Source: Bacillota bacterium (GTDB taxonomy: Bacteria; Bacillota; Thermincolia; Thermincolales; UBA2595). Taken from it: DNA of 34,629 bases. The stretch's first letter is position 1, and each line of letters begins with the position of its first letter. The translations under genes and the position numbers were made by a program. The stretch lies in contig JAJZQD010000018.1 of assembly GCA_021847735.1 (NCBI GenBank), forward strand, positions 1 through 34,629, written 5' to 3'. Of this stretch, positions 12,564 through 26,243 are shown piece after piece. The notes under the pieces were generated by a model. The model had not been told where the DNA came from, made no database searches, and saw only the letters and a list, made by a program, of their open reading frames with translations.

Positions 12564-12698
12564 AATTAAAAATGCCAGGCAGTATCCAGTTCTGGAATTG
12601 CACCGGCGAAGACCTTTTTTGTGGCACGTCAAATATTTTTCATGAAACCGCTTGGAGCCGTGAGGACCGAGACGGAAGGTATACTTGATTTTGCTATC

Positions 12699-21016: not shown

Positions 21017-21069
21017 CCCCCCGCCCCTTGTACCCAAAGGGGCAGCCTCACTTTAGTTTGGCCAGAAAA

Positions 21070-21188
21070 GGAAAGGGCAGGTGTGTTCCGCAGAGCGAGG
21101 CTGACGTCCGCCAGCCCGCGACCGCGTAAGCGGGAGCGGTTTGCTGGCTGAGTTGTTGCTCGCTCGGAGGAATACACCTGCCCTTTCC
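21070..21188. repeat. Large inverted repeat with nested hairpin
   Basis: The left arm 21070-21099 (starting GGAAAGGGCAGGTGT) and right arm 21159-21188 (ending ACACCTGCCCTTTCC) are complementary at about 27 of 30 positions. Between them lies a nested stem with GCCAGC and GCTGGC and a GC-rich inner hairpin around GTAA. It sits between the convergent ends of bioY and the vWA operon. It could end transcription from both sides, but it has no T-runs and is much larger than a normal terminator, so a small mobile or REP-like element is also possible. Confidence 0.7.
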
Positions 21189-21222
21189 TTGCCAGCGTAC
21201 CCGGAGCAAGGAGGATGTCTCT

Positions 21223-22977
21223 TTAACTGTACTTATATTGTTCCCATTCCTGAGTTACTACATCAACGAGGCTGTTTTTGTCAAGTTCATCAACAATATA
21301 GAGGTTGCCCTTCCCGATGGTGGAGAGTTCGGTCATATACTCTTCATTAGGGATTACTCCTATACAGACCAGCCTGATTTTATTTTCGGCAATCATCTTA
21401 GCGGCCTTCAAGGCATCTTTTTGAGCATCTGTGGTCCACAACGGGAAGTTGGGGATACCGTCGGTTATTAATACCAGCAAGGGGTTGCGAGCCCGTTTCC
21501 GCTTGATTAAATTGATGCTTTCCACTATTCCCTTGGCCAGGGGAGTTAACCCTTCAGGTTGGACAGTGCGCAGGCCGTCCTGCAGCTTCTGATAGTTCTT
21601 GGTAAAGGGTACAACTACCTGGGCGGACATTTCCTGGAAAACCACCACACTAACCTTTTCTTTGGAGGTCAAGAGGAAGTGCTCCGCTAAATAAGATACG
21701 GCCCTTAGCTTTTCCCCGACCATACTGCCGCTGCAGTCAATGGCAATACATGTGTCGATGGGGGCAAAAGATTTTTTGCCGTATACCTTGATGTCCTTTT
21801 TTTCAATTGTCATATGGGTCCGGCCTTCCAGGTAACTGCGGACTGAAGCGTTTACAACGGTTTCCGGTATGGCGATATCACTCAGCCAGGCCCGGTCAGG
21901 CTGGCTTACCACCTTCTTATGGTCAGTAAGCTGGCTCTTTCTGGACTTAAGCTCCGAATTCCGGTATGTCCGGTAATTGTGCCGGACAATCTGGTACCGG
22001 CGGATAGACTTTCTGACTTGGGCTTCCAGTTCTTTTTGGTGGTTTCTGATAAAATCGCGGATAGCCTTGCCATCATCCGTCAGAATAGAGGCAAGCCTGC
22101 CCTTTTTGATAAGGTTGTGGTTGGACAGGTCCAGCAGGGTTTGCTTCAGGTCCCCGTCGCCGTGTTTCTTGGCAAAGGACCCCAAGAATATATTCCCTGC
22201 GGTGGTGAGGGATTCCAGGAACCTGGCAGCCTCTTCCACACTCCCAAAGGCACAGGCCAGGTTCATGATTATCTGCAAGCGGTTTTGCTGGGCACGATAT
22301 TTCTGCGATTCGGGTGAATTAAAACCTGGCAGGCCTAAACCTATTCCCAGACCGGGCCTGGTTTCTATTTCTTTTTCACAATGGATGATTTTTTCCACTC
22401 GCCTGATTTCAAAGCCCTGGTTCATGATGGCTTGTTCCACAGCGTCAGCAATAAACAGCAAACTGTCATAAAACTGGGGCTTCACCGTGAATAACAGGTG
22501 GACGTGGGTTTCCGGCTTTCTGGCCTTTGCCGGGATCAGTTCCACTGTACGGCTGGCCAAATCGAAAACGCTTCCTTTGCCCCCTGCGGTCCTTAGAAGA
22601 ATACGCTGAGCCATATATTTTGTCAATTCTGTAATCCTGTCTTTTGAAAACTCATCGCTCTTTTCTTCCTGCAGTTTTCGGAAGTAGCCGTCTACTCCGT
22701 CCCATATCCGCCTGGCTACGAACACTGGGTCCAGGCTGGCTGGCTCATGAAATACGTCCATATGCAGCATGAGGTCGTCTTCCGTCTGCTGCAGGTAGTA
22801 ACGTCCTGCATCCTGGTCAGTGTATATGCGGATGTCGCCCGGGGTCCTGGGGTCATTACCGTGAAGTTTACGGCTGACAACGGTAGTTTCTCCTAAACGT
22901 ACGCCCTGATTCTTTCTAAAGTACGCGCTCAGGTACTTTTCGAGGGTCATCCTTTGTTGTCTTTCGGAATATTCCAA
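21223..22977 (-). CDS. vWA-domain protein, second copy (partner of AAA+ ATPase)
   Basis: The 584-residue protein has an uncharacterised N-terminal part of about 390 residues and a C-terminal vWA domain. The MIDAS residues are present: DCSGS from D414, T in EGLTPLAKG, and D in LITDGIPN. It resembles by position and layout the vWA partners of MoxR/Mg-chelatase-type ATPases. It is a near duplicate of the protein encoded at 23014-24765: the MIDAS aspartate is residue 414 in both and well over three quarters of residues agree by eye. The start is TTG at 22977, encoding MEYSER, with an AAAGGGGG site on the minus strand. It is the last gene of the operon and lies 36 bases after its twin. Function unknown. 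Confidence 0.85.
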   Translation of the reverse strand: MEYSERQQRMTLEKYLSAYFRKNQGVRLGETTVVSRKLHGNDPRTPGDIRIYTDQDAGRYYLQQTEDDLMLHMDVFHEPASLDPVFVARRIWDGVDGYFRKLQEEKSDEFSKDRITELTKYMAQRILLRTAGGKGSVFDLASRTVELIPAKARKPETHVHLLFTVKPQFYDSLLFIADAVEQAIMNQGFEIRRVEKIIHCEKEIETRPGLGIGLGLPGFNSPESQKYRAQQNRLQIIMNLACAFGSVEEAARFLESLTTAGNIFLGSFAKKHGDGDLKQTLLDLSNHNLIKKGRLASILTDDGKAIRDFIRNHQKELEAQVRKSIRRYQIVRHNYRTYRNSELKSRKSQLTDHKKVVSQPDRAWLSDIAIPETVVNASVRSYLEGRTHMTIEKKDIKVYGKKSFAPIDTCIAIDCSGSMVGEKLRAVSYLAEHFLLTSKEKVSVVVFQEMSAQVVVPFTKNYQKLQDGLRTVQPEGLTPLAKGIVESINLIKRKRARNPLLVLITDGIPNFPLWTTDAQKDALKAAKMIAENKIRLVCIGVIPNEEYMTELSTIGKGNLYIVDELDKNSLVDVVTQEWEQYKYS

Positions 22978-23013
22978 GGGTTTTGCCCCCTTTTAGCGGA
23001 CTAAGGATAAAGC

Positions 23014-24765
23014 TTAGGATTTATATTGTTTCCACTCCTGGGTTACTACATCTACCAGGCTGTTTTTGTCAAGTTCATCAACAACATAAAGATTGCCCTG
23101 ACCAATTGAGGCCAATTCCTCCATGAAACTTTCGTTGGGAATGACCCCTATACAAACAAGTCTGATTTTATTTTCGGCAATCATCCCAGCGGCTTTGAGG
23201 GCATCTTTTTTGGCATCTATCGTCCACAGCGGGTAGTTGGGCAGGCCGTCTGTAATCAGGATCAGTAAGGGGTTGCGGGCCCGCTTCTTCTTGATTAAAT
23301 TAATGCTTTCCACTATTCCCTTGGCCAGCGGAGTTAACCCTTCGGGTTGGATAGTCCGGAGGCCGTCCTGCAACTTCTGATAGTTTTTGGTAAAGGGGAC
23401 AACTACCCGGGCACCTGTTTCCTGGAAGGCCACTACGCTTACCTTTTCTTTTGAGGTTAGCAGGAAGTGTTCGGCTAAATAAGATACGGCCCTTATCTTT
23501 TCCCCGACCATACTGCCGCTGCAGTCAATGGCTATCAATGTATCGATTGGGGCAAAGGACTTTTTACCGAATACCTTGATATCTTTTTTCTTGATGGTCA
23601 TACGGGGTTCGCCTTCCAGGTAACTGCGGGCTGAAGCGCTTACGACGGTTTCCGGAATAGCGATATCGCTTACCCAAGCCTGATCCACCTGATTGACCAC
23701 CTTCTTATGGTCAGTCAGCTGGCTTTTCCGTGACTTAAGCTCTGAATTCCGGTAGGTCCGGTAATTGTGCTTGACAATCTGGTACCGGCGGATAGACTTT
23801 CTGACCTGGGCTTCCAGTTCTTTTTGATGGTTTCTGATAAAGTCGCGGATAGCTTTGCCTTCATCTGTTAGAATAAAGGCAAATCTGCCCTTTTTTACGA
23901 GATTCTGATTCGACAGATCGAGTAGGGTCTGTTTCAGATCCCCGTCACCGTGTTTCTTGGCAAAGGACCCTAAGAATATATTCCCTGCAGTAGTGAGGGA
24001 CTCCAGGAACCTGGCGGCATCTTCAACACTCCCGAAAGCGCCGGCCAGGTTCATGATTATCTGCAAACGGTTCTGTTGGGCACGATATCCCTGCGCTTCC
24101 GGTGAATTAAAACCCGGCAGGCCCAAACCTATCCCCAGGCCTGACTTGGTTTCCATTTCTTTTTCACAGTGAATGATTTTTTCCACCCGCCTGATTTCAA
24201 AACCCTGGTTCCCAATAGCCTGCTCAACGGCGTCGGCAATAAACAGCAAACTGTCAAAAAACTTGGGTTCTACTGAAAACAGAAGGTGGACGTGGGTTTC
24301 TGGCTTTCTGGCCTTCTCAGGCACCAGTTCCACACTACGGCTGGACAGCTCAAATATATTTCCCGTTCCGCCGGCAGTCCTGAGAATAATTCGTTGGGCC
24401 AGGTTTCTTGTCAATTCCGTAACCTTGTCTTTTGAATATTCGGTACGGTTTTCGTCCCGTAGTTGGAGGAAGTAGCTTTCAACACCCTGCCATATCCGCC
24501 TGGCGACATAAACCGGGTCAAGGCTTGCGGGTTCGTGAAAGACATCCATGTGCAGAACCAGATTATCATCATTTTCCTTGAGGTAATAGCGTCCGGCATC
24601 CTGATCCGTGTAAATCCGGATTTCACCTGGGGCTTTGGGGTCGTTTCCGTGGACTTTGTGGCTTAGAACCGTAGTCTCCCCCAAACGCACACCCTGATTC
24701 TTTACAAAGTACGCGCTTAGGTAGTGTTCAAGAGTCATTCTGCGGTGTCTTTCGGAGTATTCCAA
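23014..24765 (-). CDS. vWA-domain protein, first copy (partner of AAA+ ATPase)
   Basis: The 583-residue twin of the downstream gene: the same N-terminal region of unknown fold (LSAYFVKNQGVRLGE, FHEPASLDPVYVARRIW, HCEKEMETK) and a C-terminal vWA domain with DCSGS from D414, LTPLAKG and LITDGLPN. The segment with GLGIGLGLPGFNSPE and AAGNIFLGSFAKKHGDGDL-like blocks is almost identical in both copies. The real start is TTG at 24765 (LEYSERHRR), placed after AAAGGAGGG on the minus strand; the frame is open upstream but that part has no counterpart in the twin. It follows the ATPase gene by 110 bases, which contain a GGCCGGG hairpin at 24851-24868. Function unknown; an ATPase-driven remodelling role is inferred. 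Confidence 0.85.
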   Translation of the reverse strand: MEYSERHRRMTLEHYLSAYFVKNQGVRLGETTVLSHKVHGNDPKAPGEIRIYTDQDAGRYYLKENDDNLVLHMDVFHEPASLDPVYVARRIWQGVESYFLQLRDENRTEYSKDKVTELTRNLAQRIILRTAGGTGNIFELSSRSVELVPEKARKPETHVHLLFSVEPKFFDSLLFIADAVEQAIGNQGFEIRRVEKIIHCEKEMETKSGLGIGLGLPGFNSPEAQGYRAQQNRLQIIMNLAGAFGSVEDAARFLESLTTAGNIFLGSFAKKHGDGDLKQTLLDLSNQNLVKKGRFAFILTDEGKAIRDFIRNHQKELEAQVRKSIRRYQIVKHNYRTYRNSELKSRKSQLTDHKKVVNQVDQAWVSDIAIPETVVSASARSYLEGEPRMTIKKKDIKVFGKKSFAPIDTLIAIDCSGSMVGEKIRAVSYLAEHFLLTSKEKVSVVAFQETGARVVVPFTKNYQKLQDGLRTIQPEGLTPLAKGIVESINLIKKKRARNPLLILITDGLPNYPLWTIDAKKDALKAAGMIAENKIRLVCIGVIPNESFMEELASIGQGNLYVVDELDKNSLVDVVTQEWKQYKS

Positions 24766-24875
24766 GGCTCTTGCCCTCCTTTCTGCTGCCAGGGGAAACG
24801 AAATCCTGCCAAAAAACAAAAACCTATTATTTAATGCAGGATATAATGATGGCCGGGTAGCCCCGGCCTAGACTG

Positions 24876-26243
24876 TTATTTAAAGTCTCCTTCTGATTTT
24901 ACCAATTCGTCCAGATTCAAGTCCGGAAGCCTTTTGGCCTTATTAAGCGGTGATGCTTTGACAGGGTCATTACTGGAAGTTTCCTCTGCCGGTTTTTCCT
25001 GTTTCCCGGTAAAGAGTTGTTTCAAGGGTTTAAAAAACGATTTATCTTCTTTGACAGCAGCCGGTTCGGGTTCGAAATTCACTTCGGCTAAACTGCTGTT
25101 GATAGCCGGTTCATACTCGGAAAAAGAAGTCTCGGGTTCTTTTTTTTTATTTTGGGAAGAAAAGTTCATGGCCGGGGGAGCGTTATCTCCGCCACTGGGT
25201 CTGGAGTCGGAAGAATTCATAATCTTAGTCAGGGTTTCCACATCCACCCTGTGTTTCAGGGCCAGGGGAATGACTTTTAGGATGTCGCTTACCAGCAACT
25301 GATCCCGTTGTCTTAGGGCGCAATGTAGAATAGCTGCATGCTGAATTGCCTCAATCGCCCGGAAACTTTCCAGGTTGTATTTTACGTAAAGCCTGGCAAT
25401 AAAGTTCCGGAGGAAGTCCGGCATGGTAAGAGATTCAAACTTTTTCGCTATCAAGGCCATTTCTTTCAGGAGGCGGGCCGAATGGTCTACGGACCTTTTT
25501 GCAATATTTTCTGCGCCAAGCCGTCTCTGTTCACTTTGTACCAGGATGTCGGCGATGGCATCAGGGTTAGTAGTCCGACCCATTTCAACCACAAGGTCAA
25601 ACCGGTCTGAGAGCTGTCTTCTGATTTCCTGTAACGGTCCGGGTTCCTCGTCGGGGTTAGAGGCTGCCCATACCGATACCTGAACAGGCAGTTCTACTAC
25701 CGGTAATCCCGTTTCTTCAATTTGTACACGACCGGGTTTAGTTCCCATCACGTCAAGCAAAATATCTGTTATCTCCGGGGAAGTGTCGGCCAGCCGGTTT
25801 ATTTCATCTATAAAGATAACTCCCCGATGGGCTTGCGGGATAATCCCCGGCAACAAAGCCGCTTCAGGGTTGGCGGAATTTGTGATTTTCTGTAAATCGA
25901 TACTGCCGGCAATGGTCCCGATTTTGGCGGAATGAGATATCTCCAGGAAGGGACGCGGTACTGTTTCATTCCCCAACGACTCAAGCTCTTCCTTTGACAG
26001 GTGCCTGTGGTTAGGGCAGTGGGGATTTTCAGGGTCACAGTTATACAGGCAGTTTTTAATCCGTACGATAGGAGGCATAATCTGACGGGCGGCCCGCATA
26101 ATCGTCGTTTTACCCGTCCCCCTCAATCCTTCGGCATGTAAATGAAGGGGAACATTCCATAACATAGAAATAATCGCCATCTCAACAACCTCAAACAGGG
26201 TGTTGTTGCCGTCATGGCGGGCTAACTCGGTATAGGATTTCAT
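24876..26243 (-). CDS. AAA+ ATPase of the Mg-chelatase I/MoxR type
   Basis: The 455-residue protein has Walker A GLRGTGKT (residues 39-46), Walker B GVIFIDEIN, a sensor segment WAASNPDEEPG and an arginine-rich RRQLSDRFDLVVEMG, the pattern of ChlI/BchI-like ATPases. An insert after Walker A carries C65, C69, C76 and H79 (CLYNCDPENPHCPNH), a possible metal site. The last 105 residues form a low-complexity tail rich in E, K, P and S with no recognisable domain. No other chlorophyll or cobaltochelatase gene is near, so metal chelation is unlikely; such ATPases with vWA partners mostly remodel protein complexes. The ATG start has AGGAGGAAGG upstream. It is first in the operon with the two vWA genes. 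Confidence 0.87.
   Translation of the reverse strand: MKSYTELARHDGNNTLFEVVEMAIISMLWNVPLHLHAEGLRGTGKTTIMRAARQIMPPIVRIKNCLYNCDPENPHCPNHRHLSKEELESLGNETVPRPFLEISHSAKIGTIAGSIDLQKITNSANPEAALLPGIIPQAHRGVIFIDEINRLADTSPEITDILLDVMGTKPGRVQIEETGLPVVELPVQVSVWAASNPDEEPGPLQEIRRQLSDRFDLVVEMGRTTNPDAIADILVQSEQRRLGAENIAKRSVDHSARLLKEMALIAKKFESLTMPDFLRNFIARLYVKYNLESFRAIEAIQHAAILHCALRQRDQLLVSDILKVIPLALKHRVDVETLTKIMNSSDSRPSGGDNAPPAMNFSSQNKKKEPETSFSEYEPAINSSLAEVNFEPEPAAVKEDKSFFKPLKQLFTGKQEKPAEETSSNDPVKASPLNKAKRLPDLNLDELVKSEGDFK

Follow-up and report, generated by a model that had tools for sequence, protein, structure and literature searches.

A predicted AAA+ motor with two tandem vWA adaptor genes in a Bacillota genome: a tentative case for alternative adaptors

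A three-gene unit on the minus strand of a Bacillota contig, in which the gene for a ChlI/MoxR-type AAA+ ATPase is followed by two near copies of a gene for a vWA protein (Table 1), may encode one AAA+ motor and two alternative adaptors, a reading which we hold tentatively and at a probability of about 0.45. The unit was studied within a window of 34,629 nucleotides, the whole stretch of DNA analysed, and in relatives from the same phylum (genomes, contigs and loci are numbered with G, C and L). The MoxR/ChlI-vWA kind of system is already known; new here are the single motor with tandem adaptors and an N-terminal domain of the adaptors (N-domain) that is unmatched in the families searched.

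The genes are arranged in the order ATPase, vWA copy 1 and vWA copy 2, with 110 bases between the ATPase gene and copy 1 and 36 bases between the two copies. The layout and order given in the initial annotation are retained, except that copy 1, formerly started at 24819, most likely begins with the TTG at 24765; the TTG starts of both vWA genes are preceded by a purine-rich site. The vWA proteins had also been described as near copies with intact MIDAS residues, and they are indeed identical at 488 of 582 residues (84%) in a gap-free alignment, each keeping all 17 residues checked (five of the MIDAS and 12 of the N-domain). No further adaptor copy was found in the window's genome, a bin 61.8% complete in 165 contigs. 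The GC-rich hairpin at 24851-24868 could set the ratio of motor to adaptor. A palindrome of 130 bases lies just past copy 2, at 21061-21190 (75% self-complementary; the RNA folded from 21050-21199 has -83.6 kcal/mol, z -8.7). It is a dispersed palindromic repeat, for which the window's own genome gave 51 matches, some being the opposite strand of one copy. At 12576-12679 of the window, the Rfam pan motif RF01749 scores 44.8 bits (gathering cut-off 36.2) and overlaps the start of the frame at 12621.

Table 1. Features of the three-gene unit, in window positions.
Feature	Position	Strand	Basis or remark
ChlI/MoxR-type AAA+ ATPase (motor), 455 aa	24876..26243	-	Pfam and PDB profile matches
Walker A GLRGTGKT, residues 39-46	26106..26129	-	7/8 residues invariant in 47 ATPases
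Putative metal site (Cys3His) C65-x3-C69-x6-C76-x2-H79	26007..26051	-	72/73 aligned ATPases
GC-rich hairpin, no T run, between ATPase gene and copy 1	24851..24868	-	fold z -3.39
vWA adaptor copy 1, 583 aa, TTG start behind AGGAGGG	23014..24765	-	
N-domain of copy 1, residues 18-212	24130..24714	-	alignment of 62 sequences
Winged-helix part of copy 1, residues ~225-320	23806..24093	-	Sso10a 1r7j E 7.5e-4; HTH_45 in 23/62 members
vWA domain of copy 1, residues 400-583	23017..23568	-	BchD 2x31 E 7e-15; VWA_2 51.5 bits
vWA adaptor copy 2, 584 aa, TTG start	21223..22977	-	
N-domain of copy 2	22342..22926	-	
Winged-helix part of copy 2	22018..22305	-	gap-free alignment with copy 1
vWA domain of copy 2	21229..21780	-	VWA_2 49.4 bits

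By its sequence, the ATPase is assigned to the ChlI/BchI group. It matches the Pfam families Mg_chelatase (25.9 bits, cut-off 20.3) and AAA_lid_2 (34.6 bits, cut-off 22.7) as well as the PDB profiles of ChlI (8osf, 1.1e-35) and BchI (1g8p, 5.3e-30), and it has the Walker A and B motifs and the ChlI-type AAA+ core with lid that place it among ChlI/MoxR-type AAA+ proteins. A vWA protein with a MIDAS is encoded beside it, which is the genomic mark of MoxR-vWA pairs. The Cys3His site, suggested earlier as possibly metal-binding, is conserved in 72 of 73 aligned ATPases as a putative metal site, the one ATPase outside the count reading X at this place. The cysteines are absent from the ChlI chains 8osf and 6l8d, and BchI 1g8p has one. 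In two proteins of a CobN cluster of G002, the same position is occupied by C-x3-C-x8-C-x2-C, which makes the Cys3His site a variant of a motif that CobN-type relatives already carry; one ChlD-like protein of that cluster is without the cysteine site. The predicted structure of the ATPase was unusable (pLDDT 35.9).

Each adaptor comprises the N-domain (residues ~18-212), a winged-helix part (~225-320) and a BchD-like vWA domain (400-583), and Pfam names the vWA domain only in both proteins. The MIDAS of copy 1 consists of D414xS416xS418, T478 and D506. The 390 N-terminal residues had initially been left without a name; this still describes the N-domain, which matched nothing when compared alone and by sequence with the PDB up to E 10 and had no consistent Pfam match among 62 members, and it no longer describes residues ~225-320, for which winged-helix matches were obtained. 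Within the N-domain, S35, D56, G58 and H77 are invariant in the 62 sequences, and H39, H72, D74, T130, H158, H160 and E181 are found in at least 90% of them. PHROGs matches are weak and limited to the vWA and the linker or winged-helix parts. A structure model of the adaptor has a pLDDT of 51.6 overall, reaching about 80 for residues 81-150 and about 60 from there to 190, and a fold search with it retrieved the vWA domain of NorD (9qh6, Z 16.0 and 15.6) in matches spanning the vWA part only. The parts of the adaptor behave as modules, since the profile skips the winged-helix part in L151-L153, short proteins of 259-290 aa are without the N-domain in L148-L150, and a long insert follows the N-domain in L143.

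Of the 396 genomes sampled from the phylum, at least 115 have the N-domain, which nearly always lies within a longer vWA frame; these counts may be low, as the best eight or fewer candidates were scored per genome. At least 106 genomes outside the window's order have a match and at least seven have two (G033, G084, G106, G152, G199, G337, G390), those of G033 and G199 being pieces of one gene, and among the matches listed no two N-domain genes outside the order were direct neighbours. For a closer view of the neighbourhood, 80 loci from about 70 genomes were fetched from the phylum sample, with the window's order included. The ATPase gene adjoins a vWA gene in 72 of these, and six of the other eight are cut by contig ends, one still showing the last part of the ATPase; in L089 and L090, a vWA gene has no ATPase nearby (in G351, a further 15 kb upstream were read). 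Irregular adaptors include a broken one in G170, split frames in G199 and G318, and pieces at contig ends in G008, G242, G337 and G373. G152 has a short stand-alone N-domain frame (C43, ~231 aa) with no ATPase within the 6000 bases read, and in the second locus of G007 (C46; L069 8431-9111), which is counted among the 72, the gene after the ATPase encodes a 226-aa N-domain alone, without winged helix or vWA. This G007 protein retains the HxD and HxH motifs and may be either a decayed remnant or a form that stands alone.

Two or more adjacent vWA genes occur in nine of the 80 loci, all nine of them in the window's taxonomic family. The earlier expectation that such ATPases usually have one partner thus describes the phylum outside this family and does not extend to a general rule, Bat loci being an exception. 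The syntenic place, flanked by CheX-CoaX and BioY-BirA, contains one vWA gene in G001, two in the window and G009, three in G004, G005 and G006, and at least three in G008, where the locus is split over contigs; no match for the operon was found in G003, a 100% complete genome of the window's family. Since G001 has one copy and G003 none, no copy is indispensable. Wherever the locus could be read in relatives, one ATPase is accompanied by one to three adaptors, and genome-wide the family ATPases (E below 1e-180) stand against N-domain adaptors at two versus at least five in each of G004, G005 and G006, two versus at least four in G009, and one versus at least two in the window's genome. G004, G005, G006 and G009 have a second locus, where a separate ATPase is accompanied by a pair of divergent vWA genes (35-42% to the window), with HDOD, CheX and LrgAB genes nearby (L064, L066, L068, L074); G008 and G002 carry a single vWA gene together with an ATPase at another place. 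In G004, G005, G006 and G009, a protein of ~900 aa that is absent from the window is encoded between the vWA genes and BioY; it has a class III aminotransferase match in L063 (3267-5963) and is similar in L065, L067 and L073.

The initial annotation had proposed either a hetero-complex or a recent duplication under selection. Selection is borne out by the comparison of synonymous and non-synonymous differences, and recency is not: the window pair has a dN of 0.091 and, at well-diverged synonymous sites, a dS of 0.87 (ratio 0.105), so that the copies did not arise recently and neither of them is in decay. The ratio is 0.041-0.073 for same-position copies 1, 2 and 3 of G004, G005 and G006, which extends selection to each copy in relatives. 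The annotation would have yielded to single copies in all close relatives together with decay of one copy here; relatives have one to three, and both window copies are intact, although a second-locus partner in G007 is shortened to 226 aa. The dS of tandem pairs is above 2 or saturated in G004, G005, G006 and G009 and 0.67-0.83 in G008, and all 15 complete tandem copies keep all 17 key residues.

In a tree of 33 proteins, copies 1, 2 and 3 of genus g4 (G004-G006) form separate clades (100/100 each), and the window copies (99/97) and the G008 copies (100/99) are sisters; the bootstrap of the window pair is 84-93 on smaller sequence sets. With the window copies and the G008 copies each clustering within their own genome, no set of specialised copies is common to the genera. 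Copy 1 of G009 joins copy 1 of genus g4 at 91/90 in the same tree and at 58/0 to 66/30 in trees of smaller sets, and window copy 1 as a copy-1 orthologue was not rejected by AU tests (p 0.0748 for the N part, 0.115 for the rest, 0.0577 for the whole). Either separate duplication or gene conversion may have produced the genome-wise grouping. Within the window pair, synonymous differences are more frequent in the N-domain (pS 0.635) than elsewhere (0.452; permutation p 0.001, circular-shift p 0.038, at a boundary chosen after inspecting the data), which would fit partial gene conversion without proving it.

Because the copies differ most in the N-domain, they probably act as alternative adaptors whose clients overlap. 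Genus g4 has 105 sites that are uniform within each copy yet distinguish the copies from one another, and these fall on 53 of 200 positions of the N-domain, 33 of 199 of the middle part and 19 of 184 of the vWA domain. Mean identity among the 15 complete tandem copies is 0.709 in the N-domain, 0.798 in the winged helix, 0.759 in the linker, 0.852 in the vWA domain and 0.868 in the C-tail, and the last two values would fit a docking face shared by the copies. Orthologues of copy 1 also change faster in the N-domain than in the vWA domain, those of copy 2 mostly do so too, and those of copy 3 do not, so that the N-domain excess is only partly copy-specific. Together, these comparisons lend moderate support to the view that the copies may differ in client reading.

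In the proposed working of the system, the ATPase would form a hexamer, on which the adaptors would dock one at a time via the vWA domain and the C-terminal tail, and ATP-driven movement would pull or twist the N-terminal part of the adaptor, which would grip the client. The N-domain with its invariant His and Asp and the winged helix would be the client-reading parts. NorQD and the chelatases suggest by analogy that the client would likely be a metalloprotein or a cofactor site, which is the least certain step. NorQ-NorD is a pair of MoxR AAA+ and vWA proteins that inserts FeB into NO reductase. The window's system resembles it in its predicted AAA+ ring and in a MIDAS vWA adaptor with a separate N-terminal part, but its N-domain matches no PDB chain by sequence and it has several adaptors per motor. 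In a study of NorQD, a vWA finger is reported to enter the hexamer pore and the C-terminus of NorD to touch NorQ, with rotation proposed as the movement that stretches the linker leading to the N-terminal domain (PMC13036017). The rubisco activase CbbQ-CbbO likewise combines a motor with a vWA substrate adaptor, whose isoforms are reported to act on different rubiscos, with a motor:adaptor ratio of 6:1 (PMC4660213); each CbbO isoform has its own motor isoform, however, whereas the window adaptors share one. Given this ratio, and by analogy, alternative complexes appear more likely than one ring holding both adaptors. In Bat (aerotolerance) loci, one MoxR is accompanied by two vWA genes, BatA and BatB, which are not known to be near-identical copies and have a domain layout unlike that of the window adaptors. 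The likeness lies in more than one vWA gene per MoxR gene, and a Leptospira study places moxR and bat genes in one cluster (PMC3557215).

The copies could also do the same job, with tandem duplication only raising the amount of adaptor relative to motor and gene conversion maintaining their likeness. Copy numbers of one to three, the genome-wise grouping in the window and G008, and the lower synonymous divergence of the window pair outside the N-domain agree with such a dosage effect, but the genus g4 copies stay distinct across species, with half of their 105 diagnostic sites in the N-domain and tandem dS values beyond 2 or saturated, and we regard it as somewhat unlikely. Less probable still is an obligate hetero-complex with both adaptors in one assembly, be it a double ring or a hetero-oligomer, for most carriers manage with one adaptor and the ratio reported for CbbQO is 6:1 (PMC4660213); the close spacing of the two genes, the key residues kept in both and the two divergent vWA genes beside one ATPase in the second locus of G004, G005, G006 and G009 are points in its favour. 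Alternative adaptors, the preferred reading, have the ATPase-less loci L089 and L090, the short N-domain partner in G007 and the similar short frame in G152 counting against them. That the duplication is recent, unselected and heading for loss would agree with copy numbers differing among relatives and with shortened or broken copies elsewhere (G007, G152, G170), yet the synonymous divergence, the low ratio, the open frames and the complete key residues of both window copies make it scarcely credible.

The nearest sequence relatives of both gene types are the I and D subunits of Mg/Co chelatases (ChlI/BchI, BchD/ChlD, TIGR02442), which speaks for a cobalt or magnesium tetrapyrrole chelatase. 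This reading is very unlikely, because no ChlH/CobN gene (PF02514) was found in eight of the order's nine carriers, of which five are at 99% completeness and three, the window's own genome at 62% among them, at 62-75%. The exception, G002, has PF02514 in a different cluster that includes ChlI/ChlD-like proteins of its own, and contig C50 of G002 (L018, L030) bears several such CobN-like genes. The window vWA protein, in contrast to chelatase subunits, is without an AAA domain and has an extra N-domain and winged helix, the ATPase site is Cys3His and not C4, and scores are far below the equivalog cut-offs (TIGR02030 111 of 467 bits, TIGR02031 47-84 of 500, TIGR02442 87-157 of 779). A more specific proposal, which we consider doubtful, is a chelatase-like machine for metal or cofactor insertion that would operate phylum-wide mostly without the tetrapyrrole subunit (as tested in the order), with the His and Asp residues of the N-domain carrying or placing metal and the winged helix reading the client, and with one motor that has, in the window's family, been given two or three adaptors directed at different metalloproteins.

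Several roles and settings were tried. Maturation of CO dehydrogenase was rejected as an obligate role because six carriers (G014, G017, G063, G068, G084, G101) have no TIGR01702 match. No family of the PADLOC models for anti-phage defence matched any of the three proteins at E 0.01, and a plasmid or virus origin was dismissed, matches being limited to the vWA domain. Spo0A_C occurs in 112 of 115 carriers, as against 232 of 281 non-carriers (Fisher p 2.5e-5, which ignores relatedness and takes the matches listed as carriers); as relatedness is uncontrolled and G003 has Spo0A without the operon, a link to sporulation is only hinted at. The neighbour settings vary (LapA-RecJ-RelA, GerM-Rph, MnmG, LytTR), with no constant partner.

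The N-domain is widespread, in at least 115 of 396 genomes of the phylum, yet without a Pfam or PDB relative found, and the tandem copies, at one to three per motor in close relatives, allow a direct test of the client specificity of a MoxR-type motor.
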